From IMG/VR virus record IMGVR_UViG_3300042260_000800, positions 1 to 36,602 of that record: 36,602 bases of DNA, one strand, 5' to 3'. Every line of letters begins with the position of its first letter. Positions within the stretch are counted from its first letter, which is position 1. Shown here piece by piece: positions 11,586 through 36,408 of the stretch. The notes beneath the pieces were generated by a model. That model was not told the DNA's origin and searched no databases. It was given only the letters and a program-made list of their open reading frames with translations. The stretch is from a virus. The position numbers and the translations under genes were made by a program.

Positions 11586-11876
11586 TTAATAACCGGCTTC
11601 GCGCTGATGACGAATGGCAAGGATGATCGCGGTTTCTCCATCGAAGCGGTAAAGCGACACATAGCCGCTGTCGCCAAAGGTGATGAACCACTCGCGGAAC
11701 TCGGGTTCCATATCCTCGACAGGTCGACCCGCCCCTGGTTGGGCACGTAAGATGTTCATGCCTTCGCGGATCGCCGCGGCAGCACGGCGGGCTGCGTCAG
11801 GGTTCTTGTCGGCAAGGAAGTGGTAAAGTCGCTCGACGTCCCGCAGGGCTGCGGGTGACCAGATCAGTTGTGGCAT
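11586..11876 (-). CDS. ParE-family toxin
   Basis: 96-residue RelE/ParE toxin: SPAALRDVERLYHFLADKNP at the N-terminus (residues 7-26), AAIREGMNIL, PGAGRPVEDMEPEFREW, and a closing strand YRFDGETAIILAIRHQRE ending EAGY. ParE toxins typically act on DNA gyrase. It overlaps the upstream ribbon-helix-helix antitoxin gene by 13 bp and lies on the minus strand between two late tail genes. It is unlike the ParE-like protein at 1767-2078 in sequence, so the two modules were acquired separately. Confidence 0.87.
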   Translation of the reverse strand: MPQLIWSPAALRDVERLYHFLADKNPDAARRAAAAIREGMNILRAQPGAGRPVEDMEPEFREWFITFGDSGYVSLYRFDGETAIILAIRHQREAGY

Positions 11877-12148
11877 TCAGGACCTGTCGCCACTTCGCCC
11901 GCTTCCAACTTCGCAAGCCAGGCATCGGCTTCCTCATGCGTGACGTGTTTGCCGGTCGCCTGAAACTCCTCCCAGGCCTGAAGTCCTGCCTGACGAAATG
12001 CCTCGCGCTTCTCTTCGCGCTCAACGAACTGCGCAACGGCCTCGCGCAACATCCAGTGGGTGGAGCGATCCTTGGCATCCGCCAACCGCTTGAGGCGGTC
12101 ACGGGTATCCTGATCGAGCTTCACGGCGATGGGACGGATGGCATTCAT
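11864..12148 (-). CDS. Ribbon-helix-helix (CopG/ParD-like) antitoxin
   Basis: 94 residues. Residues 5-45 (IRPIAVKLDQDTRDRLKRL, STHWMLREAVAQFVE) form a ribbon-helix-helix DNA-binding unit. The C-terminal half is acidic and helical and contains EEADAWLAKLEAGE, a common toxin-binding and degradation-prone tail. It is expected to neutralise the ParE-like toxin that follows and to repress its own promoter. The interval 12149-12237 holds that promoter and the start region of the next late gene. Confidence 0.87.
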   Translation of the reverse strand: MNAIRPIAVKLDQDTRDRLKRLADAKDRSTHWMLREAVAQFVEREEKREAFRQAGLQAWEEFQATGKHVTHEEADAWLAKLEAGEVATGPECHN

Positions 12149-13230: not shown

Positions 13231-13671
13231 TCAGCAGGTGCCGTAAAAGCCGCCAGAGTAGCGGCAATATTCTGTCGCGACACCCATAGAGATCATGGCT
13301 TCGGCGATGTCGCGGCCATTTGGTAAGAAACACTGGCCGACGAGGCGCTGGTAACGATCGATGTCGATGAGGACGCAGGTCAGCGGTTGGCCGGCGATCA
13401 AGCCGTGTATCGCCTTGGTGGCGGCGGAACCGCCGCGCTCATCACGCTCCGGCGCATCGAGGCCCCAGACGCGGATGGCAGGGTCCACGCCACTCAGATG
13501 AAACGTGTCACCATCTGTGACGCGTGTCACGGTGCCAGAAAACTCTTCGGCGTTTGCCGCGGTCGGCGCGAGGGCTGCGGCGAGGCACATCGCCCCTACC
13601 GCCGCGAAAGTAACGCCCCGCGAGACACCCGTGTCGGCCAAGCCAGCCATATATCTGGACAATCTGTTCAT
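13231..13671 (-). CDS. Secreted thermonuclease (SNase-like)
   Basis: 146 residues. A signal peptide is visible: basic N-terminus, hydrophobic run about 18-38, and a probable cut after TAANA near residue 41. The SNase fold follows: VTDGDTF (51-57), RVWGLDAPE with Arg67, Asp72 and Glu75, and DRYQRLVG with Arg109. These correspond to the catalytic Arg35/Asp40/Glu43/Arg87 set of staphylococcal nuclease. The C-terminus (EYCRYSGG) is typical of small alphaproteobacterial members. It would degrade nucleic acid in the periplasm or outside the cell. It is minus-strand cargo next to the bactofilin gene, with no link to virion assembly. Confidence 0.88.
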   Translation of the reverse strand: MNRLSRYMAGLADTGVSRGVTFAAVGAMCLAAALAPTAANAEEFSGTVTRVTDGDTFHLSGVDPAIRVWGLDAPERDERGGSAATKAIHGLIAGQPLTCVLIDIDRYQRLVGQCFLPNGRDIAEAMISMGVATEYCRYSGGFYGTC

Positions 13672-16841: not shown

Positions 16842-17132
16842 TTAGGCCGCTCGAAGGGGCTGGATTCCTGTGAGGTCTACCTTCTCGCGGGCGCGGGCCA
16901 AATCCCAGGACCGTTGCAGGTTCATCCAGTATTCTGGCGTGGTGCCAAAGAAGGTTGCAAGACGCATGGCCGTGTCGGCAGACAAGGTCGTCTCGCCCTT
17001 GACCAGCCGTTCGATCCGGGTGCGCGGCACAGCCAGGCGCTTTGCTAGGGCTGGCGCACTCATCGCCAGCGGCTCCAGATAGAGCAACGAGAGCACTTCA
17101 CCAGGATGGGAAGGATTATGCAGCAGGCTCAT
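16842..17132 (-). CDS. higA: HigA-family antitoxin
   Basis: 96-residue HTH antitoxin of the HigA type: HPGEVLSLLYLEPLAMSAPALAKRL (given here as HPGEVL and APALAKRLAVPRTRIERLVKG), then TLSADTAMRLATFFGTTPEYWMNL, the signature that closes the HigA helix bundle. It binds HigB and the operator upstream of higB. Toxin precedes antitoxin, as is normal for higBA. It starts 11 bp after the higB stop and ends 20 bp from the tail chaperone gene on the other strand. Confidence 0.9.
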   Translation of the reverse strand: MSLLHNPSHPGEVLSLLYLEPLAMSAPALAKRLAVPRTRIERLVKGETTLSADTAMRLATFFGTTPEYWMNLQRSWDLARAREKVDLTGIQPLRAA

Positions 17133-17143
17133 CGTGTCTCCTT

Positions 17144-17425
17144 TCAGTGATAATCTACAAGTTCAACTTCGGCTGGACCTTGATCTGTCCAGACAAAACA
17201 AATGCGCCACTGGCCGTTGATGCGGACCGAATGCTGGCCGATCCTGTCGCCAACCAAGGCTTCCAGATGGTTGCCCGGCGGAAAGCGCAAGTCTTCCAAA
17301 ACAACCGCCGCATCCAACGCAGAAAGCATAGCACGCGTTCGCCGTACCAGATCCGCCGGAAAGCCTTTGCCGAAACGGCCAGAGAGCGCCTGCTCAGTCA
17401 GTTTGCCGCGAATGCTGATGATCAT
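17144..17425 (-). CDS. higB: HigB-family toxin
   Basis: 93 residues: MIISIRGKLTEQALSG, RRTRAMLSALDAA, DLRFPPGNHLEALVGDR, and GQHSVRINGQWRICFVW, the standard HigB/RelE pattern with the RINGQWRICF core. HigB is a ribosome-dependent mRNA endonuclease. ATG 17425 matches the usual family start; an in-frame ATG lies 9 bases upstream at 17434. Transcription should start just upstream at the palindrome 17435-17451. Confidence 0.9.
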   Translation of the reverse strand: MIISIRGKLTEQALSGRFGKGFPADLVRRTRAMLSALDAAVVLEDLRFPPGNHLEALVGDRIGQHSVRINGQWRICFVWTDQGPAEVELVDYH

Positions 17426-17434
17426 GTCAAGCAT

Positions 17435-17518: not shown

Positions 17519-17899
17519 TCAGCCCTTGATCTTCTCGATCAGGGTGACCCCCGGCAGGCCCTCGAAATGCTTGTCGCAGGTCAGCAGTTCCGCTCCTTTG
17601 GCGCGGGCGGTCGCAAACATGATGGCATCGGCCGTTGCAAGCTTGTGGTTGCGGCAGGCCTCTGCCGCCGCGATAGCGATTTCTGTATCGAGCGGCACCA
17701 CTTGGCAGACTTGGGTAAAGGCAATGACCTGATCTGCCTTGTCCTCGCCCGCTTCCCGCGTCAGCCACTTTGCCAGTTCCAGCTGAACCATGCTGGGGAC
17801 AAGCCAGTCGGACTGTTCAGGCAGATGCGCCGCCAGTTTGTCGCCGGTCGGGGACCCGATCAGCCATTCGATCCAAGCGGATGTATCGACGAGGATCAT
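17519..17899 (-). CDS. VapC-family PIN-domain toxin
   Basis: 126-residue PIN-domain ribonuclease: MILVDTSAWIEWL with Asp5, VQLELAKWL with Glu41, LATADAIMFATA with Asp91, and LLTCDKHFEGLPGV with Asp109. These four acidic residues bind the metal in VapC toxins, which typically cleave tRNA or rRNA. It overlaps the antitoxin stop by 3 bases and is on the minus strand directly in front of the tape measure gene. Confidence 0.9.
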   Translation of the reverse strand: MILVDTSAWIEWLIGSPTGDKLAAHLPEQSDWLVPSMVQLELAKWLTREAGEDKADQVIAFTQVCQVVPLDTEIAIAAAEACRNHKLATADAIMFATARAKGAELLTCDKHFEGLPGVTLIEKIKG

Positions 17900-18111
17900 C
17901 AGAAGCGGTCCGCTCGATCACGGTAATCGGCGGAAGATGCGCCACGTACCAGTCCCTTCAAGGCATCGCGTTTGGGGACCGGGACCAGTAAGACGCCAGT
18001 ACCCTTCGGAATGAACGCAAAGGTCAGACCTGCCTCCCAATGCTGGGCACTGCGGATCGCCTTCGGGATCGAGATCTGGAACTTGGAGGAAAGGGTCGCG
18101 GTCTCGGACAT
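17899..18111 (-). CDS. AbrB-type antitoxin (VapB)
   Basis: 70-residue SpoVT-AbrB swapped-hairpin DNA-binding protein: TATLSSKFQISIPKAIR, then GLTFAFIPKGTGVLLVPV, and a basic C-terminal toxin-binding part (ALKGLVRGASSADYRDRADRF). ATG 18111 is preferred to ATG 18117 because the GGAGG lies 9 bases upstream of 18111 but only 3 from 18117. It should neutralise the PIN toxin and repress the pair. Confidence 0.88.
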   Translation of the reverse strand: MSETATLSSKFQISIPKAIRSAQHWEAGLTFAFIPKGTGVLLVPVPKRDALKGLVRGASSADYRDRADRF

Positions 18112-18161
18112 GATCATACGCCTCCATGATCGATGTCGATAACGTAAGATGACTATAGCCC

Positions 18162-28953: not shown

Positions 28954-29181
28954 ATGACAGACGCGCTTGAGCTTCGGCCCCTGACCGGGCCGATCCGCCT
29001 GCATCTGACCTCAAGCGAACCGATCAGACTGCGCGTTCTGTCTGGGCCAGTGGCTGTGCGGCTTCTCGGCCAGCCCGGGCCCCAAGGCCGAACGGGTCTG
29101 CAGGGGGACAAGGGCGATCAGGGCACGCCCGGCGTGACCATTCTGCCCACTGACACCCCGATCACCGGAGGCTTCTTCTGA
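28954..29181 (+). CDS. Short collagen-like fibre protein
   Basis: 75 residues. The first ~38 residues are strand-like (RPLTGPIRLHLTSSEP). Residues 39-60 are Gly-X-Y repeats (GQPGPQGRTGLQGDKGDQG), and ITGGFF closes the protein. Collagen-like repeats form trimeric stalks in tail fibres. The stop overlaps the start of the next fibre gene (TGATG). It is one of two collagen-like proteins upstream of the oxygenase genes. Confidence 0.7.
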   Translation: MTDALELRPLTGPIRLHLTSSEPIRLRVLSGPVAVRLLGQPGPQGRTGLQGDKGDQGTPGVTILPTDTPITGGFF

Positions 29182-30164
29182 TGGCCAATACCATCCAACT
29201 CAAACGCCGGATCTCAGGGCTCGCTGGCGCGCCCGCTGCTCTGAAGTCAGGTGAACTCGCCCATAACGAGGTCGATGACACGCTTTATGTCGGCAAGGGG
29301 GATGACGGGGCGGGTAATGCAACCTCCGTCATTCCGCTCGCCGGCAAGGGCGGTTTCGTCGATCTGACAGGCGCGCAGACGATTGGTGGGGCCAAGACCT
29401 TCACATTGGTCCCGAAATCCTCCCAAGACGCCAGCGCTGCGTCTGATCTCATCCGCAAATCGCAACTTGATGGCTTGCTTGCGGGGAAAGCCCCCCTGGC
29501 TTCGCCAGTCCTGACCGGAACTCCAAGCGCCCCAACGGCAGTATCGGGGACAAACAGCACGCAAATCGCCACCACCGCCTTCGTGCAACAGGCCACTGCT
29601 GCCTTTGGCCCCGGCGATATGCTGAAATCCACCTATGACACCGACAATGACGGCAAGGTCGATGCGGCCGAGGTGGCTGATGCTGCACCTTGGGCCGGGA
29701 TTACCGGCAAGCCGACAAGCTTTCCGCCCGCGACCCACCCGCATGTCGTGAGCGATGTGACGGGCCTGCAAGCGGCACTGGATGCGAAAGCGCCGCTTGC
29801 TTCCCCCGCGCTGACCGGAACGCCGACGGCGCCCACAGCGCTCTTGGGCACCAACACGACGCAGCTGGCGACGACGGGGTTTGTGGCTGCGGCCATCGGG
29901 GCGCTGATCGATGCAGCCCCGGGCGCCATGGATACTTTGAACGAGCTAGCGGCCGCTCTCGGGGATGATCCGAGTTTTGCTTCCACCGTGACCAACGCGC
30001 TGGCGGGGAAACTGGCTTCTGCTTCAAACCTTGCCGATCTGCCGAACAAGGCCACATCGAGGACGAATTTGGGGCTTGGCTCACTTGCCACGCAGGCCGC
30101 GAGCAGCGTCGCGATCACGGGTGGGACGATCGATGGCATTGCGCTTGATGGGGGGACGTTCTGA
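29181..30164 (+). CDS. Tail fibre protein with repeated stalk units
   Basis: 327 residues. The N-terminus MANTIQLKRRISGLAG plus SGELAHNEVDDTLYVG is a common virion-attachment motif of phage fibres. Two copies of a repeat unit follow: KAPLASPVLTGTPSAPTAV (101-119) and KAPLASPALTGTPTAPTAL about 100 residues later, each followed by TTQ/STQ-(I/L)ATT-(A/G)FV. The end (ITGGTIDGIALDGGTF) is a typical fibre terminus. It has no S74 chaperone of its own; the next gene supplies one. Confidence 0.85.
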   Translation: MANTIQLKRRISGLAGAPAALKSGELAHNEVDDTLYVGKGDDGAGNATSVIPLAGKGGFVDLTGAQTIGGAKTFTLVPKSSQDASAASDLIRKSQLDGLLAGKAPLASPVLTGTPSAPTAVSGTNSTQIATTAFVQQATAAFGPGDMLKSTYDTDNDGKVDAAEVADAAPWAGITGKPTSFPPATHPHVVSDVTGLQAALDAKAPLASPALTGTPTAPTALLGTNTTQLATTGFVAAAIGALIDAAPGAMDTLNELAAALGDDPSFASTVTNALAGKLASASNLADLPNKATSRTNLGLGSLATQAASSVAITGGTIDGIALDGGTF

Positions 30165-30167
30165 GCC

Positions 30168-30863
30168 ATGGCCAACACGCTTCTAGTCAAGCGCACGACG
30201 GTCGCGGGCCGGGTGCCGACCACCGCACAGCTTGCGGCCGGGGAGCTTGCGGTCAATGTGACCGACGGCAAGCTCTTCCTCAAACGCGTCTCTGGCGCTG
30301 AAACGGTGGTGGAGCTTGGGCAAACCGGGCCTCAGGGGCCAGCCGGTCCTGTAGGGGCAACTGGTCCGGCGGGGCCACAGGGCGCAACAGGCGCCACGGG
30401 ACCACAAGGTCCTGCGGGCACAAATGGCTCTCCCGATACCGCAGCGCAGGTGCTGGCAAAGCTCATCACGGTCGACGGCGCGGGCTCCGGTCTTGATGCC
30501 GATCTTCTTGATGGCAGCCACGCCAGCGCCTTTGCCTTGCTGGCAGGCGCCACCTTCACCGGCACGGTGACCGCGCCGAACTTTGTGTCGTCCTCAGACG
30601 CGCGACTCAAATCCGACATCGCCGTGGTCCCGGATGCACTTCAGAAACTGCGGGCGCTGAGGGGCGTCACCTATCGCATGGCCGGGTCTGAAGCCCGCCA
30701 GATGGGTCTCATTGCCCAAGACGTGCAGGCGGTTGCCCCGGAAGTGGTGGTCGTGACGGAGGGTGTGCTGCGTCTCGCCTATGGCAATCTCATCGGCCTC
30801 CTCGTCGAGGCCATCAAAGACCTCGCATCTGAGGTCGATCAGCTCAAAAGGACCGCCCCATGA
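30168..30863 (+). CDS. Tail fibre with collagen-like stalk and S74 chaperone
   Basis: 231 residues. The attachment motif (MANTLLVKRTTVAG, AGELAVNVTDGKLFLKR) is followed by Gly-X-Y repeats from about residue 52 to 86 (TGPQGPAGPVGATGPAGPQG is one stretch). Then comes LDADLLDGSHAS and the S74 domain starting at SSDARLKSDIAV, with GLIAQDVQAVAPEVV. The S74 part and the APNFVSSSDARLK junction are nearly the same as in the protein at 25559-26218. The proline-containing Gly-X-Y stalk is a plausible hydroxylation substrate for the oxygenases encoded just downstream (inference). Confidence 0.88.
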   Translation: MANTLLVKRTTVAGRVPTTAQLAAGELAVNVTDGKLFLKRVSGAETVVELGQTGPQGPAGPVGATGPAGPQGATGATGPQGPAGTNGSPDTAAQVLAKLITVDGAGSGLDADLLDGSHASAFALLAGATFTGTVTAPNFVSSSDARLKSDIAVVPDALQKLRALRGVTYRMAGSEARQMGLIAQDVQAVAPEVVVVTEGVLRLAYGNLIGLLVEAIKDLASEVDQLKRTAP

Positions 30864-31774
30864 TCGAGACCGGGCTTTATGCCATCACGAACTGCGGCGT
30901 GCCGCGCCATTACGCGGTCGATGTCAAACCGGGCTATGCCGGGCTTGCGGTCTTTGTGCCTACCAGCGAAGGCACAACTGCGGGCATGGCGGGTATCATG
31001 CTCTGGGCTGATCTGCGCACCTATCTCGAGACCCCGCCCGATTTTGGCAACGCGGCAGGCTTTGTCGACACGCGCAATGACGAGGTCTTTGTCCCGGACC
31101 TGCCTGGCACGGCGCATGGCGGGGTTTACAAGGGGCGCTCTTACATCTTTGCCTCAGGCATGAACGGGCTCGATGAGCTCGTTGACTTCTCGCTTCTTGA
31201 TATTGCGGTGGGGCTGAATGCCCAGCCTTTGCCCTGGCGCAACCGCTTCGCCCAGACCGCCCGAGAAAAGGTCGACACCTCCTTCCGGCACCGTGCGCGT
31301 GAGCGCCTCTCCAATGCCATGGTGGTGTTCATGCCGATCGCTGCCCCCTTCGATCAAACCCGCATTGAGGTGCTCTGCGAGGGCGATCCGATCCTGCTGA
31401 ATGGCACAGTGCTCGCCGGCCGAGTCCCTGATGCCGACATCCCGAAGGACGGGGTGTGGTTCAAGCAGTTCTACTTCCATGCGGTGGCAGATGGCCCAGC
31501 GGGGGAGGTCTTGACCGTGCCCGCCGGCGGACGGGCAGAGGTTCCCGTTCATTTGCGCTGGAACAAGGACGCATCTCCTTGCGCCCATGCCATGACGCTC
31601 AGGCTTGAGAGCGATGCGGGCTATCTGCCAAGCCGGCGTCTTCACACAGACGAAACCGGCCAGGCTCGTTTTGCAGTCGAGGCCTTAGGGCTGACGGCGG
31701 GCGAGCGCATCACCGTCAAGATCAACACCGAGCATTACACCGCCATTGGCAAGATCACCTTGGAGGTCGTGTGA
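30860..31774 (+). CDS. Unassigned fibre-region protein with an Ig-like C-terminal domain
   Basis: 304 residues, coupled to the collagen-like fibre gene by ATGA. The N-terminal half begins ETGLYAITNCGVPRHYAVDV, quoted only in part, and contains a mixed alpha/beta region. The C-terminal ~90 residues (VLTVPAGGRAEVPVHLRW, LESDAGYLPSRRLHTDETG, ALGLTAGERITVKI) resemble a bacterial Ig-like (Big_1-type) beta-sandwich. I do not recognise the N-terminal part. It may be a receptor-binding adhesin, or a scaffold protein of the modification cassette that follows. Its stop overlaps the first oxygenase start. Confidence 0.6.
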   Translation: MIETGLYAITNCGVPRHYAVDVKPGYAGLAVFVPTSEGTTAGMAGIMLWADLRTYLETPPDFGNAAGFVDTRNDEVFVPDLPGTAHGGVYKGRSYIFASGMNGLDELVDFSLLDIAVGLNAQPLPWRNRFAQTAREKVDTSFRHRARERLSNAMVVFMPIAAPFDQTRIEVLCEGDPILLNGTVLAGRVPDADIPKDGVWFKQFYFHAVADGPAGEVLTVPAGGRAEVPVHLRWNKDASPCAHAMTLRLESDAGYLPSRRLHTDETGQARFAVEALGLTAGERITVKINTEHYTAIGKITLEVV

Positions 31775-32517
31775 TGGAGATTGCGACCACGAGCATGATG
31801 CAGGTGATTTATCCTACCTTTGTCCTGCACAAGCATTGGGACATGCCTAAGGGGTTTAACGATCGCCTTTCCGCGCTGGCGAAAGAGGACACGGAACGCA
31901 ACCGCATCAGGGACCCCCGAGATCCGCGCACCTCAGGGGACATGACCAATCACCTAGGCCATCTGCGCCACAACTTTCTGATGGACAGCAAAGACCCTGT
32001 GATCGCGATGCTGGCTCAGATGGCAGCGGCTGGCGTGCGCGAGTATCTGCAGCTCGCTTACGGCTATGACCATGCCGGAGAAATCCGCATGATGGCGGAC
32101 AGCTTCTGGCAGCGCCGGGCGCAGCGGGAGAATCTCGGGATTCACACCCATACGCATCCCCAGACGGACATTGTCTGCACCTACTATCCGCGGGTCATAT
32201 TGGACCAAGATTGCCCGGACACATCGCAGCTCCATCGCGGCGCTGTGCGGTTCTATGATCCGGCCAATGTCGGCAAGCGGCTTTGGCCCTGCCGAAACCC
32301 TGACGTTTACGTCAGCGGATGGTATGCGGTCGAGCCGCGCACTGGGTCCATGCTTATCTTCGAGGGGCATGTGCCCCATGACAGCACCTACTTCGAGGGG
32401 GAGGAGCGGATGTGCATTCCGGTCCTGTGCAACCTCGATCTTCCCAACTCCCATTGCAAGGTCGGGCTTCGCGACATTCTCGCGGCCCAAAGAGAAGGAG
32501 GCTCTCATGGCCTATAA
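31774..32517 (+). CDS. 2-oxoglutarate/Fe(II)-dependent oxygenase (first of two)
   Basis: 247 residues with the double-stranded beta-helix pattern of 2OG-Fe(II) oxygenases of the TIGR02466/2OG-FeII_Oxy_5 type. NLGIHTHTHPQTDIVCTYYP (118-139 in part) supplies metal-binding His126/His128 and Asp132. GSMLIFEGHVPHDS supplies the distal His202, and EERM supplies the 2OG-binding Arg212. Such enzymes usually hydroxylate protein or small-molecule substrates. ATG 31774 is preferred over GTG 31771 because TGGAGG is 7 bases upstream. It overlaps the Cys-tail peptide gene by 11 bp, so the two are co-translated. Confidence 0.82.
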   Translation: MEIATTSMMQVIYPTFVLHKHWDMPKGFNDRLSALAKEDTERNRIRDPRDPRTSGDMTNHLGHLRHNFLMDSKDPVIAMLAQMAAAGVREYLQLAYGYDHAGEIRMMADSFWQRRAQRENLGIHTHTHPQTDIVCTYYPRVILDQDCPDTSQLHRGAVRFYDPANVGKRLWPCRNPDVYVSGWYAVEPRTGSMLIFEGHVPHDSTYFEGEERMCIPVLCNLDLPNSHCKVGLRDILAAQREGGSHGL

Positions 32518-32764
32518 AGTTGGCACCACCATCGTGATCGACGATCAGGGTTTTGTGCCCTGGTCACGCATCTCTGGGGCACCGGCGGCGGGTTTGACAC
32601 CCGGCGAATACACCAAGACCGCCGCAGAATACAAAGCTGTAGGTGCAGGTAACCTCTCGAGCACCGCATATCTGGGTGTTGAATATCAGCCCGACATGAC
32701 GTTCCACGATGTCTATGTGACGACCTATTCGAACTGCAACTGCAACTGTGCCTGCCGGTGCTGA
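32507..32764 (+). CDS. Small protein ending in five alternating cysteines; candidate modified substrate
   Basis: 85 residues. The N-terminus is YKVGTTIVIDDQGFVPWSRI, which resembles the VGxTxVID opening I associate with marine phage fibre proteins. A middle with seven tyrosines overall (Y3, Y35, Y42, Y55, Y60, Y70, Y74) follows. The C-terminus is SNCNCNCACRC, with Cys77, 79, 81, 83 and 85 ending the protein. There is no signal peptide, no double-glycine leader and no membrane segment. A very strong GAAGGAGG lies 6 bases before the ATG, suggesting high expression. It lies between two oxygenase genes and one gene before a radical SAM/SPASM enzyme. It is the most likely substrate of that enzyme and is RiPP-precursor-like. 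No known precursor family is recognised. Confidence 0.85.
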   Translation: MAYKVGTTIVIDDQGFVPWSRISGAPAAGLTPGEYTKTAAEYKAVGAGNLSSTAYLGVEYQPDMTFHDVYVTTYSNCNCNCACRC

Positions 32765-32766
32765 CG

Positions 32767-33393
32767 ATGGAGGTTCATAGCAGGAGCGTCGAGCTCTGGC
32801 CTACCCGCGTTAGCTTCTTCGAGACGCCTGTCGATTGGGAGGTGAACCGACAGGTGGCGGATGAGGCCATTGCGGCTGTGAAGGGCAATACCACGCGCCT
32901 TTCTGCGGCCGAGCGCCGGGTGCGGGGAATTCTCGAACGCAGTGATGCCGGCCAAGCCCTGAAGTCCCACCTCTTTGCCTGCGCGCGCGCCGTGCTCGGT
33001 CCCTGGGCCCCGTGCCTCGACCCCGACCATTGCGAACACCGCGCCTTGGTCATCGGGCCCGGTGGCTTCATCTCGACCCACAAGGACAGCCGCGAGGGGG
33101 ACCTCACTTGCGTGCACTTCCTGACCGGTAGCGGGGTAGGGCAGCCGGTGAACTCTGTCGGCACCCCGCGCTTTGTGATTGAGGATCCGTCGCGCTACTT
33201 CGATGAGGGACGGCTGCCCTATGAGAGCCGCCATGGCTACTCGGTCAATCCGCGACCGGGGCTCTCGGTCTTCTTCCCCTCCCACATTCCCCACAACCAG
33301 CACCCCTATGAGGGGAGCGCGCCGCATGTGCAGGTCGTCGCGAACTTCCGCGTCAATCTGCCCGTGGCGATCGAAGAAAGGCTTTTTGACTGA
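32767..33393 (+). CDS. 2-oxoglutarate/Fe(II)-dependent oxygenase (second)
   Basis: 208 residues with a textbook HxD...H triad: ISTHKDS with His105 and Asp107, the distal His173 or His176 in FPSHIPHNQHPY, and Arg195 in VVANFRVNL for 2OG. The architecture resembles aspartyl/asparaginyl beta-hydroxylase-like or prolyl-hydroxylase-like cupins. It differs clearly from the first oxygenase, so the pair probably acts on different residues or steps. ATG 32767 or GTG 32758 may start it; no strong ribosome-binding site is seen, so translation likely depends on the peptide gene just upstream. Its stop overlaps the radical SAM start (TGATG). Confidence 0.85.
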   Translation: MEVHSRSVELWPTRVSFFETPVDWEVNRQVADEAIAAVKGNTTRLSAAERRVRGILERSDAGQALKSHLFACARAVLGPWAPCLDPDHCEHRALVIGPGGFISTHKDSREGDLTCVHFLTGSGVGQPVNSVGTPRFVIEDPSRYFDEGRLPYESRHGYSVNPRPGLSVFFPSHIPHNQHPYEGSAPHVQVVANFRVNLPVAIEERLFD

Positions 33394-34649
33394 TGTGGTT
33401 TGATCTGACGTTGGAAGCGCGGGATGGCAGCCGCCATTCCGTCCGCTACAACCCGCACACTTCGGAATGCGAGGGGCTGCCACTGCCTGTTAACCCGGGA
33501 ACCTTCGCGCAGGTCGCCCGTGTGGCCAAAGACAAGCCCCTGGGCAAATCCCGTGCGCCTCTGGTGCTCAAAATCCAGCTGGGCCTGTCGTGCAACTATG
33601 CTTGCACCTATTGCAGTCAGGCCTTCCAGATCGCGGATGCCACGGTCTCGAGGCTGGCGGATGTTGAGCACTTCTTGACCCAGCTTGACGGCTGGATTGC
33701 CCAAGCCCCAGAAAAGATTGAGCTCTGGGGCGGAGAGCCATTTTTGTATTGGGCCAAGATCAAGCGGCTGATCCCGGCGCTGGCGGAGCGGTTCCCGACG
33801 GCAGCCTTCTCAATCATAACCAACGGATCCCTCCTCGACCGCAAAAAGCTCGACTTCATAGCCGCGCATGACCTCGCCATCACGATCTCGCATGACGGGC
33901 CGGGGCAGCATCTGCGAGGGCCGGATCCGCTTGATGATCCCGACAAGCGGCGCTGGATTGAAGCCCTGCTGGCCGAGCGGCCGGGCAGGACTGGCTTCAA
34001 CGCGGTGCTGACGCGCCAGCATCACGACCTTCGGGCCCTCAAGTCCTGGTTCGCCGAAAAGGTCGGGCCCGACATCTTCGTCGGGCTCGAGGGCGTGGTG
34101 AATGTCTATGACGCGGCGACCGCCATCGGGACAGGGCGGTTCGATCCCGCGGAGCTGAACAGCCTGACGCGGTCGATCTTTGAAGCGCTGGTCGAGGACC
34201 AGAATGCCTTCGGCCTTGGGGAACGCATCAACGAGTTCTATGCCTCGATCCAGCGTCGGCGGCCAATCGAAGCCCTTGGTCAGAAATGCGGTATGGACAG
34301 CCCGGACGCCATCGCAGTTGATCTTCGCGGCAACGTCATGACCTGCCAGAACACCGGGGCAAAGGGGGCCCACAAGATTGGGCATGTTGCCGACTTTGAC
34401 GCCATCGCGCTTGATACCGCGACACACTTTGCGTTTCGGGAGGAATGCATGGCATGCCCTGTCGTTCAGCTCTGCAAGGGGTCCTGCATGTTCCTCGAAG
34501 GGGACTTCTTCAAGCAGTCTTGTGCCAACGAGTTCGCGTTTAACATGGGGATCATGATGGCGGCATTATGGCATTTGATGGGGATGGTGGTGGTCGGGTT
34601 GAAGGCAAGATCGGGCGAGAAAACGGCGCAGGTTACGCTGGCCGGATAA
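33393..34649 (+). CDS. Radical SAM / SPASM-domain protein
   Basis: 418 residues. After a 55-residue N-terminal extension comes the 4Fe-4S/SAM motif CNYACTYC (Cys67, 71, 74, CX3CX2C), then LWGGEPF (111-117) for SAM binding and SIITNGSLL. The C-terminal SPASM domain has all seven cysteines in canonical spacing: Cys299, GX4C at Cys318, CX2CX5CX3C at 352/355/361/365, and Cys377. Such enzymes usually install thioether, C-C or epimerised linkages in ribosomal peptides or mature enzymes, using two auxiliary clusters. No recognisable RRE domain is seen. Being last in a tightly coupled operon with the Cys-tail protein, its substrate is probably that protein. Confidence 0.9.
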   Translation: MWFDLTLEARDGSRHSVRYNPHTSECEGLPLPVNPGTFAQVARVAKDKPLGKSRAPLVLKIQLGLSCNYACTYCSQAFQIADATVSRLADVEHFLTQLDGWIAQAPEKIELWGGEPFLYWAKIKRLIPALAERFPTAAFSIITNGSLLDRKKLDFIAAHDLAITISHDGPGQHLRGPDPLDDPDKRRWIEALLAERPGRTGFNAVLTRQHHDLRALKSWFAEKVGPDIFVGLEGVVNVYDAATAIGTGRFDPAELNSLTRSIFEALVEDQNAFGLGERINEFYASIQRRRPIEALGQKCGMDSPDAIAVDLRGNVMTCQNTGAKGAHKIGHVADFDAIALDTATHFAFREECMACPVVQLCKGSCMFLEGDFFKQSCANEFAFNMGIMMAALWHLMGMVVVGLKARSGEKTAQVTLAG

Positions 34650-35034: not shown

Positions 35035-35056
35035 TTTACCCCAGTTGGAGTTGAAG

Positions 35057-35431
35057 ATGATGAAGAAGCCCGTGACTACGAAGGCCCCTGCCGAGCAGGT
35101 CGTGAAGGACATCCGGCGTGCGACGCGCAAGTTGCATTCGTCCGAGGAGAAGATCCGGATCGTGCTATCCGGCCTGCGTGGCGAAGACAGCATTGCCGAG
35201 TTGTGCCGCAAGGAAGGGATCGCCCAAAGCCTTTATTACAGCTGGTCGAAGGAATTTCTCGAGGCTGGCAAGAAGCGCCTGGCCGGTGACACAGTCCGGC
35301 AAGCGAACACCGGCGAAGTAAAAGACCTGCGCGCTGAGGCAATGGCGCTGAAGGAACTGGTGGCCGACCTCAGCCTCGAAAACCGCTTGCTCAAAAAAAA
35401 CATGAGCGGGGCTGGGGGAGACCAAGAATGA
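35057..35431 (+). CDS. IS3-family transposase OrfA
   Basis: 124 residues: HTH_Tnp_1-type helix-turn-helix (SSEEKIRIVLSGLRGEDSIAEL in parts, CRKEGIAQSLYYSWSKEF), followed by a leucine-zipper-like coiled coil (LRAEAMALKELVADLSLENRLLKKN in parts). It binds the IS ends. ATG 35057 is chosen. Near its end, A AAA AAC (35395-35401) is in phase for a -1 shift that would join it to OrfB. Confidence 0.88.
   Translation: MMKKPVTTKAPAEQVVKDIRRATRKLHSSEEKIRIVLSGLRGEDSIAELCRKEGIAQSLYYSWSKEFLEAGKKRLAGDTVRQANTGEVKDLRAEAMALKELVADLSLENRLLKKNMSGAGGDQE
35395..35401 (+). promoter_or_regulatory. -1 frameshift heptamer A AAA AAC (OrfAB)
   Basis: The zero-frame codons AAA AAA AAC place the heptamer correctly. The shifted frame is that of OrfB and is open through to it, giving the OrfAB transposase. 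The separate ATGA overlap at 35428 also allows OrfB alone. Confidence 0.75.
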
Positions 35432-36408
35432 GATACCCAGCCGCCGAAAAGCTTGAAATCATCCGGCTGGTGGAGCAGTCGCATCTGTCCGTCAGGCGCA
35501 CCCTGTCCAAGATCGGCATCCCGCCCACCACATTCTACCGCTGGTATGACCGCTTCGTCGAACAGGGGCCCGAGGGGTTGGAGGACAGGCCCTCTTCCCC
35601 TTCCCGGGTCTGGAACCGGATCCCCGAAGCGGTGCGGGATCGGATACTGGACCTGGCGCTCGAGGAGCCGGAACTGTCGCCGCGCGAACTAGCCGTGAGG
35701 TTCATTGATACGGAAAAGTATTTTGTGTCAGAGGCTTCAGTTTACCGCCTGCTCAAATCCCACGACCTCATCACCAGCCCCGCCTACGTCGTCATCAAGG
35801 CGGCGGATGAGTTCAAGGACAAGACGACGGCGCCAAACCAGATGTGGCAGACTGATTTTACCTATCTCAAGGTCATCGGCTGGGGCTGGTTTTACCTGTC
35901 CACGATCCTCGACGACTACTCCCGCTACGTCATCGGCTGGAAACTCTGCGGCAACATGCGGGCCGAGGATGTCACCGACACGCTCGACATCGCCCTTGCC
36001 GCATCAGGCTGCGACAGTGCCAAGGTTCTGCACAAACCTCGGCTTCTCAGCGATAATGGCTCGTCCTACATCGCCGAGGATCTGGCCAAATACCTCGAGG
36101 ACAAAGGCATGGCGCACGTCCGCGGGGCGCCGATGCATCCCCAGACCCAAGGCAAGATCGAACGCTGGCACCAGACCCTCAAGAACCGCATTCTCTTGGA
36201 AAACTACTTCCTCGAAGGCGAACTTGAGGCCGCCATCGCCGCATTCATCGACCACTACAATAACCATCGCTACCACGAGAGCATCGGCAACCTCACCCCA
36301 GCTGACGTCTACTTCGGCCGCGGCGAAACCATCTTGGCCGAAAGGAGGCGCATCAAACAGCAGACCATCAAAAACCGCCGCTTGAACCATCAGCGTCAAG
36401 CAGCATAA
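35428..36408 (+). CDS. IS3-family transposase OrfB (DDE integrase core)
   Basis: 326 residues. An N-terminal helix-turn-helix (EKLEIIRLVEQSHLSVRRTL, FYRWYDRFVEQG) precedes the rve catalytic core: WQTDFTYLKV with the first Asp, LSDNGSSYIAED with the second Asp, and QGKIERWHQTLKNRI with the Glu, which is the DDE triad in IS3 spacing. It appears intact, so the element may be mobile. The last residues are basic. Confidence 0.92.
   Translation: MRYPAAEKLEIIRLVEQSHLSVRRTLSKIGIPPTTFYRWYDRFVEQGPEGLEDRPSSPSRVWNRIPEAVRDRILDLALEEPELSPRELAVRFIDTEKYFVSEASVYRLLKSHDLITSPAYVVIKAADEFKDKTTAPNQMWQTDFTYLKVIGWGWFYLSTILDDYSRYVIGWKLCGNMRAEDVTDTLDIALAASGCDSAKVLHKPRLLSDNGSSYIAEDLAKYLEDKGMAHVRGAPMHPQTQGKIERWHQTLKNRILLENYFLEGELEAAIAAFIDHYNNHRYHESIGNLTPADVYFGRGETILAERRRIKQQTIKNRRLNHQRQAA

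Follow-up and report, generated by a model that had tools for sequence, protein, structure and literature searches.

The window, by which is meant the whole 36,602-nt stretch analysed (IMG/VR virus record IMGVR_UViG_3300042260_000800), carries a tailed-phage structural module in which two fibre genes are followed on the same strand by a cassette encoding a 304-aa protein (P304), two 2OG-Fe(II) oxygenase-like proteins (A and B) flanking a short protein that ends in a run of cysteines, and a radical SAM/SPASM enzyme (Table 1). Oxygenase-like protein A scores 26.5 bits against the PF13759 cut-off of 27 and matches TIGR02466 at 2.7e-7, also below cut-off, while protein B, which could also start at an ATG at 32767, reaches 15.8 bits with PF13759 (cut-off 27). 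Other features of the window include four toxin-antitoxin-type pairs (ParE/Phd-YefM, ParE/RHH, HigB/HTH, and PIN with an unassigned partner), which lie on the minus strand among plus-strand structural genes (1767-2371, 11586-12148, 16842-17434 and 17519-18117), and an SNase-like protein inside the structural region (13231-13671, minus strand; PF00565 6.5e-9). Directly 3′ of the radical SAM gene are transposase genes, comprising HTH_Tnp_1 (35045-35431) and a larger transposase-like ORF (35428-36408).

Table 1. Fibre genes, cassette genes and elements of the Cys-tail gene, in window coordinates.
Feature	Position	Strand	Remarks
Phage tail fibre gene	29181-30164	+	phrog_2631 3.7e-50; carries W..I.G.P motif
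Second fibre gene, collagen repeat and S74 chaperone	30168-30863	+	PF13884 6.8e-16, PF01391 2.5e-6
P304, 304-aa protein with C-terminal Ig-like domain (residues 203-304)	30860-31774	+	Recurrent partner
2OG-Fe(II) oxygenase-like protein A	31771-32517	+	phrog_81 2.1e-11; PF13759 8.5e-6
Shine-Dalgarno AAGGAGG	32495-32501	+	5 nt before ATG of 32507 ORF
Cys-tail protein, 85 aa	32507-32764	+	24 viral relatives; ends conserved, middle variable
Conserved N-terminal 29 residues (MAYKVGTTIVIDDQGFVPWSRISGAPAAG)	32507-32593	+	Putative attachment/recognition segment
C-terminal tail NCNCNCACRC, residues 76-85	32732-32761	+	Proposed modification site; Cys invariant
2OG-Fe(II) oxygenase-like protein B	32758-33393	+	phrog_81 3.3e-5; HKD...H motif
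Radical SAM/SPASM enzyme, proposed tail maturase	33393-34649	+	CX3CX2C and 7 SPASM Cys

The Cys-tail protein begins MAYKVGTTIVIDD and ends SNCNCNCACRC, with cysteines at positions 77, 79, 81, 83 and 85, so that the chain closes on a cysteine; the original prediction, of five cysteines at alternate positions at the very end of the protein, is exact. Among the 341 window ORFs of ≥40 aa, this is the only one whose final 25 residues contain CxCxCxC, and residue shuffling gives a chance expectation of 0.017 such ORFs per window. The longest mechanical ORF of the gene opens earlier, with a TTG at 32171; the start was placed at 32507 because a MAYK start is common to the relatives. A very strong ribosome-binding site, from which production in structural amounts had been predicted, does precede the gene, and such amounts may follow from it.

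Scanning viral contigs with the 85-aa protein recovered 24 relatives, of which 22 keep the C-terminal CxC tail and the remaining two run off their contigs. In a 27-member alignment seven columns were invariant (M1, T8, V10, C77, C79, C81 and C83), whilst the middle of the protein varies freely among relatives. Conservation is thus highest in the tail. The prediction was to have been refuted by a lack of fibre homology combined with a C-terminus variable among homologues, and the latter is clearly not what was found. More distant versions (L051, L052, L057, L061 and L062) retain both the tail and the opening around T-x-V, and in many relatives the two ends are separated by GDITSV...SLSGGGTSGAVTITAN, a stretch which we take to resemble common fibre sequence. 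Tandem paralogous Cys-tail genes, two or three per locus, were seen in L146, L161, L168, L200 and L217, in L052 and in L124; their products could perhaps form a hetero-oligomeric tip.

The VGxTxVID-type N-terminus had been described as fibre-like, a likeness that profile searches did not bear out. The window protein had no match among PHROGs, Pfam or NCBIfam profiles, none of the 27 relatives matched a PHROG significantly (best E 0.0047, to a family matched by two members), and no fibre homology of the N-terminus was found among 50,697 phage records; direct fibre homology of the VGTTIVID N-terminus was rejected on these grounds. When viral contigs were scanned with the N-terminus, 36 loci were recovered, five of which were translated, and an N-terminal HMM run over the collected ORFs detected short Cys-tail and Cys-tail/Hint proteins and no long classical fibre. 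The conserved N-terminal segment also precedes Hint-type Cys tails. The one motif link to fibres is a weak one, W..[IVL].[GN].P, which within the window is common to the Cys-tail protein and the fibre gene at 29181 alone. The broader proposal of a fibre-type Cys-tail protein fares better: although its own N-terminus has no significant fibre profile match, tails of the same kind end real fibres in other phages.

One such protein (L088, 646 aa) combines a T7 fibre N-terminal domain (PF03906 1.4e-20) with collagen and phage tail repeats and terminates in ...CNCDCNCDCNCACND. Collagen repeats above the Pfam cut-off (PF01391) are present in the Cys-tail proteins of L119 (616 aa), L140 (545 aa) and L259, and fibre PHROGs were matched by those of L119 (phrog_5073 1.8e-48), L259, L130, L107 and L149 and by gp028 of Achromobacter phage JWF, the body of which also resembles annotated fibre proteins of other phages. 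Those of L079, L163 and L146 gave no fibre PHROG or Pfam match. Overall, fibre-type proteins with T7-fibre or collagen repeats that end in the same tail span 300-726 aa, and because the tail ends differing, mostly fibre-like bodies, it behaves as a portable C-terminal module. The residues interleaved between its cysteines were counted in enzyme-derived loci, an earlier tabulation having been biased by the NCNCNCNC search pattern: in 72 tails (273 residues) Asn made up 55%, Ala 19%, Asp 13% (35/273) and Arg 6%, and Asn made up 6.6% of the protein bodies in a partly pattern-selected set. A few tail ORFs (L054 and one ORF of L292) are spurious low-complexity matches.

In other proteins the cysteine run is internal. 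That of JWF is followed directly by a Hint (Hedgehog/intein)-type start, NCNCDCNCNCSCFPAGTMVLMADG (PF05203 3e-12), and the same arrangement, with starts that include CFPAG, CFVKG and CFLAG, occurs in phage 2-1 and in L053, L087, L124, L279, L286, L293, L296 and L304. Domain order suggests that these relatives are self-processing; the window protein, in contrast, has no Hint domain and ends at its last cysteine. In the available part of PMC3556154 the Hint domain lies in a terminase, and that report was set aside. A Cys-rich run followed by a different shared domain, starting NCSKI(I/V)C, was seen in L095, L097-L102, L105 and L116; the one example searched had no Pfam match.

The window enzyme has the hallmarks of a radical SAM/SPASM protein. 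PF04055 is matched above cut-off, and the CX3CX2C cysteines (C67, C71 and C74) and those of the SPASM region (C299, C318, C352, C355, C361, C365 and C377) are invariant in 39 aligned rows, the latter in the seven-cysteine pattern for two auxiliary clusters. Its model (pLDDT 93.6) has as nearest fold the SCIFF maturase CteB (PDB 5wgg, 5why; Z 23.8, rmsd 4.0, 354 residues, 17% identity), followed by ChlB and anSME (Z about 21) and TigE, with SuiB also matching well. Residues 1-50 of the model, inspected for a possible fused RRE peptide-binding domain, consist of a few strands. The enzyme belongs to phrog_1802 (6.5e-54), which PHROGs lists as a radical SAM domain-containing phage protein, without function or partner, but which in Achromobacter phages JWF and 2-1 is encoded beside the Cys-tail/Hint fibre. 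PapB is its best NCBIfam model (NF047865; 3.6e-18, 65.9 bits against a cut-off of 340), and PapB, geopeptide or nif11 models lead for its relatives, all far below cut-off; across the curated maturase models (PapB, SCIFF, nif11, geopep, QhpD etc.) no cut-off was reached, the best relative being L095 with 85.2 against 340 bits. Radical SAM matches in Campylobacter phages were dropped, the neighbourhood in CP220 being by annotation without such a cassette.

Tail and enzyme co-occur whichever is used as the starting point. In a tail-first search, a DNA pattern for NCNCNCNC alone was run against viral contigs, yielding at least 120 loci; a match counted as a tail when it fell within the final 25 residues of an ORF ≥60 aa long, and the enzyme family was scored with an HMM built from 80 relatives. 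Among the pattern matches listed, the motif formed a C-terminal tail in 91/120, and 75 of these 91 tail loci had an enzyme-family ORF, always on the same strand (75/75) and downstream of the tail in 74/75 (median 1286 nt). Where ≥3.5 kb of downstream sequence was available, 58 of 60 tails among the matches listed had a same-strand downstream enzyme, compared with 2/15 listed matches that did not form a C-terminal tail (Fisher 8e-11). As a control, 79 loci were fetched with the collagen/S74 fibre gene of the window: 26 had tail and enzyme, three the tail only, 50 neither and none the enzyme only, so that the enzyme was present in 26/29 loci with a Cys tail and 0/50 without. The original prediction suggested that the protein may be matured by the radical SAM enzyme, and so tight a co-occurrence points to modification of the tail, although linkage of this kind is not proof that the tail is the substrate.

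Starting instead from the enzyme, a same-strand C-terminal Cys tail was found in 56/80 viral loci and, in bacterial genomes, in 49/80 loci (the best 80 of 238 relatives, which come from Rhodobacterales, Limnohabitans, Magnetospirillum, Burkholderia and others), with none on the opposite strand in either set (0/80 each). Loci L235, L236 and L238 are from the Rhodobacterales strain Thalassobacter stenotrophicus CECT 5294. Taking 210 enzyme loci together, an opposite-strand tail match occurred in one, and 35 had no tail by the search patterns, 18 of these being well covered. On reading, six of the 18 had Cys-Hint or YCSYC tails; the other 12 had no recognisable tail and include the Ramlibacter/Variovorax loci L242-L246. 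The enzymes of L242, L244, L245 and L246 (42-48% identity) have no Cys tail, oxygenase or P304 nearby, and this group maybe acts on a different substrate.

The remaining cassette genes recur with the pair. On the enzyme's strand in the 210 loci were a Cys tail (terminal or pre-Hint) in 164, a P304 homologue in 144 and an oxygenase in 127; the window is represented twice among these loci, in full and again as L001, and some loci are incomplete copies, hence the enzymes were also clustered at 70% identity, giving 76 clusters with a Cys tail in 58, P304 in 50 and an oxygenase in 26. Partner counts come from iterated HMMs, which can drift, and the oxygenases were accordingly checked in ten diverse partners: eight matched PF13759 at E ≤1.2e-4, four of them above cut-off, and two had no match. 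The common gene orders were CYS-P304-rSAM and, as in the window, P304-OX-CYS-OX-rSAM (33 loci each), followed by CYS-P304-OX-rSAM (29). P304 itself had no Pfam or NCBIfam match and no significant PHROG; in its model (pLDDT 89) the last 100 residues resemble Ig-like domains (Z about 10), the only part to match the PDB, and the whole fold is common to uncharacterised phage proteins (best TM 0.85). That the N-terminal part of P304 has no assignment is no evidence of a new fold. A second, weaker radical SAM member lies directly before the main enzyme in L131 (5437-6459), L132 (7139-8137), L216 (5826-6842), L220 (8990-10012) and L223 (4695-5711), possibly as a paired maturase.

Judged from sequence and gene neighbourhood, the 85-aa protein is probably a short component of the tail fibre or tail tip, and the SPASM enzyme encoded two genes downstream probably modifies its CxCxCxCxC run covalently. 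As in RiPP systems, a candidate precursor is encoded beside a peptide-modifying enzyme; on our best reading, the Cys tail would serve that enzyme as substrate and would form the working end of a fibre or tip protein, of which the window would encode a very short version. Against this reading stand the lack of a significant fibre-profile match for the window protein itself and the 12 well-covered enzyme loci in which no tail is recognisable. A fibre-type protein would be made by the tail-module genes among which the cassette lies, and the SPASM enzyme would then act on the Cys run, a step to which the reciprocal co-occurrence points strongly. By analogy with CteB and PapB, the chemistry would most likely be the formation of thioethers from Cys sulphur to carbons of the interleaved Asn, Ala or Asp residues or of a neighbouring chain, our best guess being staples inside each chain of a trimer or from one chain to the next. 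The 2OG oxygenase, perhaps hydroxylating residues of the tail or of a partner, and the Ig-like P304 would, from their recurrent linkage, belong to the same pathway or structure. In those relatives in which a Hint domain follows the tail, it may cut itself off and so leave the tail as C-terminus, and the product would be a rigid, chemically locked tip contacting the host surface.

Similarity to known maturases supports the superfamily rather than a particular reaction. CteB shares with the window enzyme the radical SAM and SPASM fold and a Cys-rich partner, but the window enzyme falls far below the TIGR03974 cut-off and belongs to another family, and where CteB acts on a 45-residue peptide, the substrate here would be the terminus of a fibre-type protein of a phage. 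PapB, likewise acting on a Cys-rich substrate, joins Cys to side-chain carbons of Asp or Glu, according to the accessible part of PMC9413430; the window tail is not such a CX3D/E site because it has neither residue. Since the nearest fold is CteB and the best NCBIfam model PapB, the superfamily fits Cys-based cross-linking. It is nevertheless conceivable, if unlikely, that the SPASM enzyme modifies the tail without thioethers, by Cys oxidation, epimerisation, C-C or other cross-links or dehydrogenation: such reactions are known among superfamily relatives, the folds of anSME, TigE, ChlB and SuiB match well and the scores of several NCBIfam maturase models are similar, but CteB and PapB, ranked first by fold and by sequence model respectively, are both thioether formers and the substrate is Cys-rich.

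A little more doubtful is a metal-threaded needle, in which the axis-facing alternate cysteines of three chains bind a row of metal ions and the enzyme does something minor or has another protein as its substrate. Alternate spacing does set every cysteine on one face of a strand, some relatives carry many more cysteines, and a free-thiol cluster could equally bind metal. The tip of T4 gp37, where HxH repeats bind iron (the ‘Trojan/Ferrojan horse’ idea, in the part of PMC11705849 available), offers a model in which the tip of a fibre likewise has ligand residues at alternate positions. The window tail, however, has Cys rather than His and no HxH repeats, is terminal and is tied to a radical SAM enzyme; a metal needle needs no SPASM enzyme, yet nearly all well-covered tails among the matches listed have one (58/60), so that this rival accounts for the Cys spacing and not for the enzyme. 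A secreted RiPP, with the gene as a bacteriocin-like prophage moron, the N-terminus as leader and the tail as core with no part in the virion, is very improbable: small size, a conserved N-terminus, an adjacent maturase and two or three tandem small paralogues at some loci would suit it, but the same tail terminates large fibre proteins elsewhere, because of which it is unlikely that, as a general rule, a leader is cleaved off and a small peptide set free.

To return to the enzyme-modified fibre tip, the pairing of a Cys tail with a radical SAM partner suggests that some phages finish their fibre tips chemically after synthesis. A wider proposal can be advanced only tentatively, namely that SPASM enzyme, 2OG oxygenase and Ig-like partner form a widespread, unnamed phage system that staples a portable Cys tail on unrelated fibre tips, with Hint exposing the tip in some. 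Searches of the open-licence PMC literature did not turn up any account of fibres that combine a Cys tail with a radical SAM partner, and NCBIfam had no model for the tails tested; pelagimyophage host-recognition clusters do hold radical SAM cassettes (PMC7029224, in the available part of which the word ‘cysteine’ is absent).

If this interpretation is correct, many environmental phages and Proteobacteria prophages would use radical chemistry to complete the tips with which they contact receptors. Such chemistry would then contribute to the assembly of virions and to the recognition of hosts, and fibre tips would constitute a new class of radical SAM substrate. PHROG 1802 would gain a function, and the presence of oxygenase and radical SAM genes commonly labelled auxiliary metabolic genes would be explained. 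The tails would moreover provide a large natural substrate set for a new maturase family, and cultured phages (Achromobacter phage JWF, for example) as well as marine lysogens would offer systems in which to test fibre-tip chemistry.
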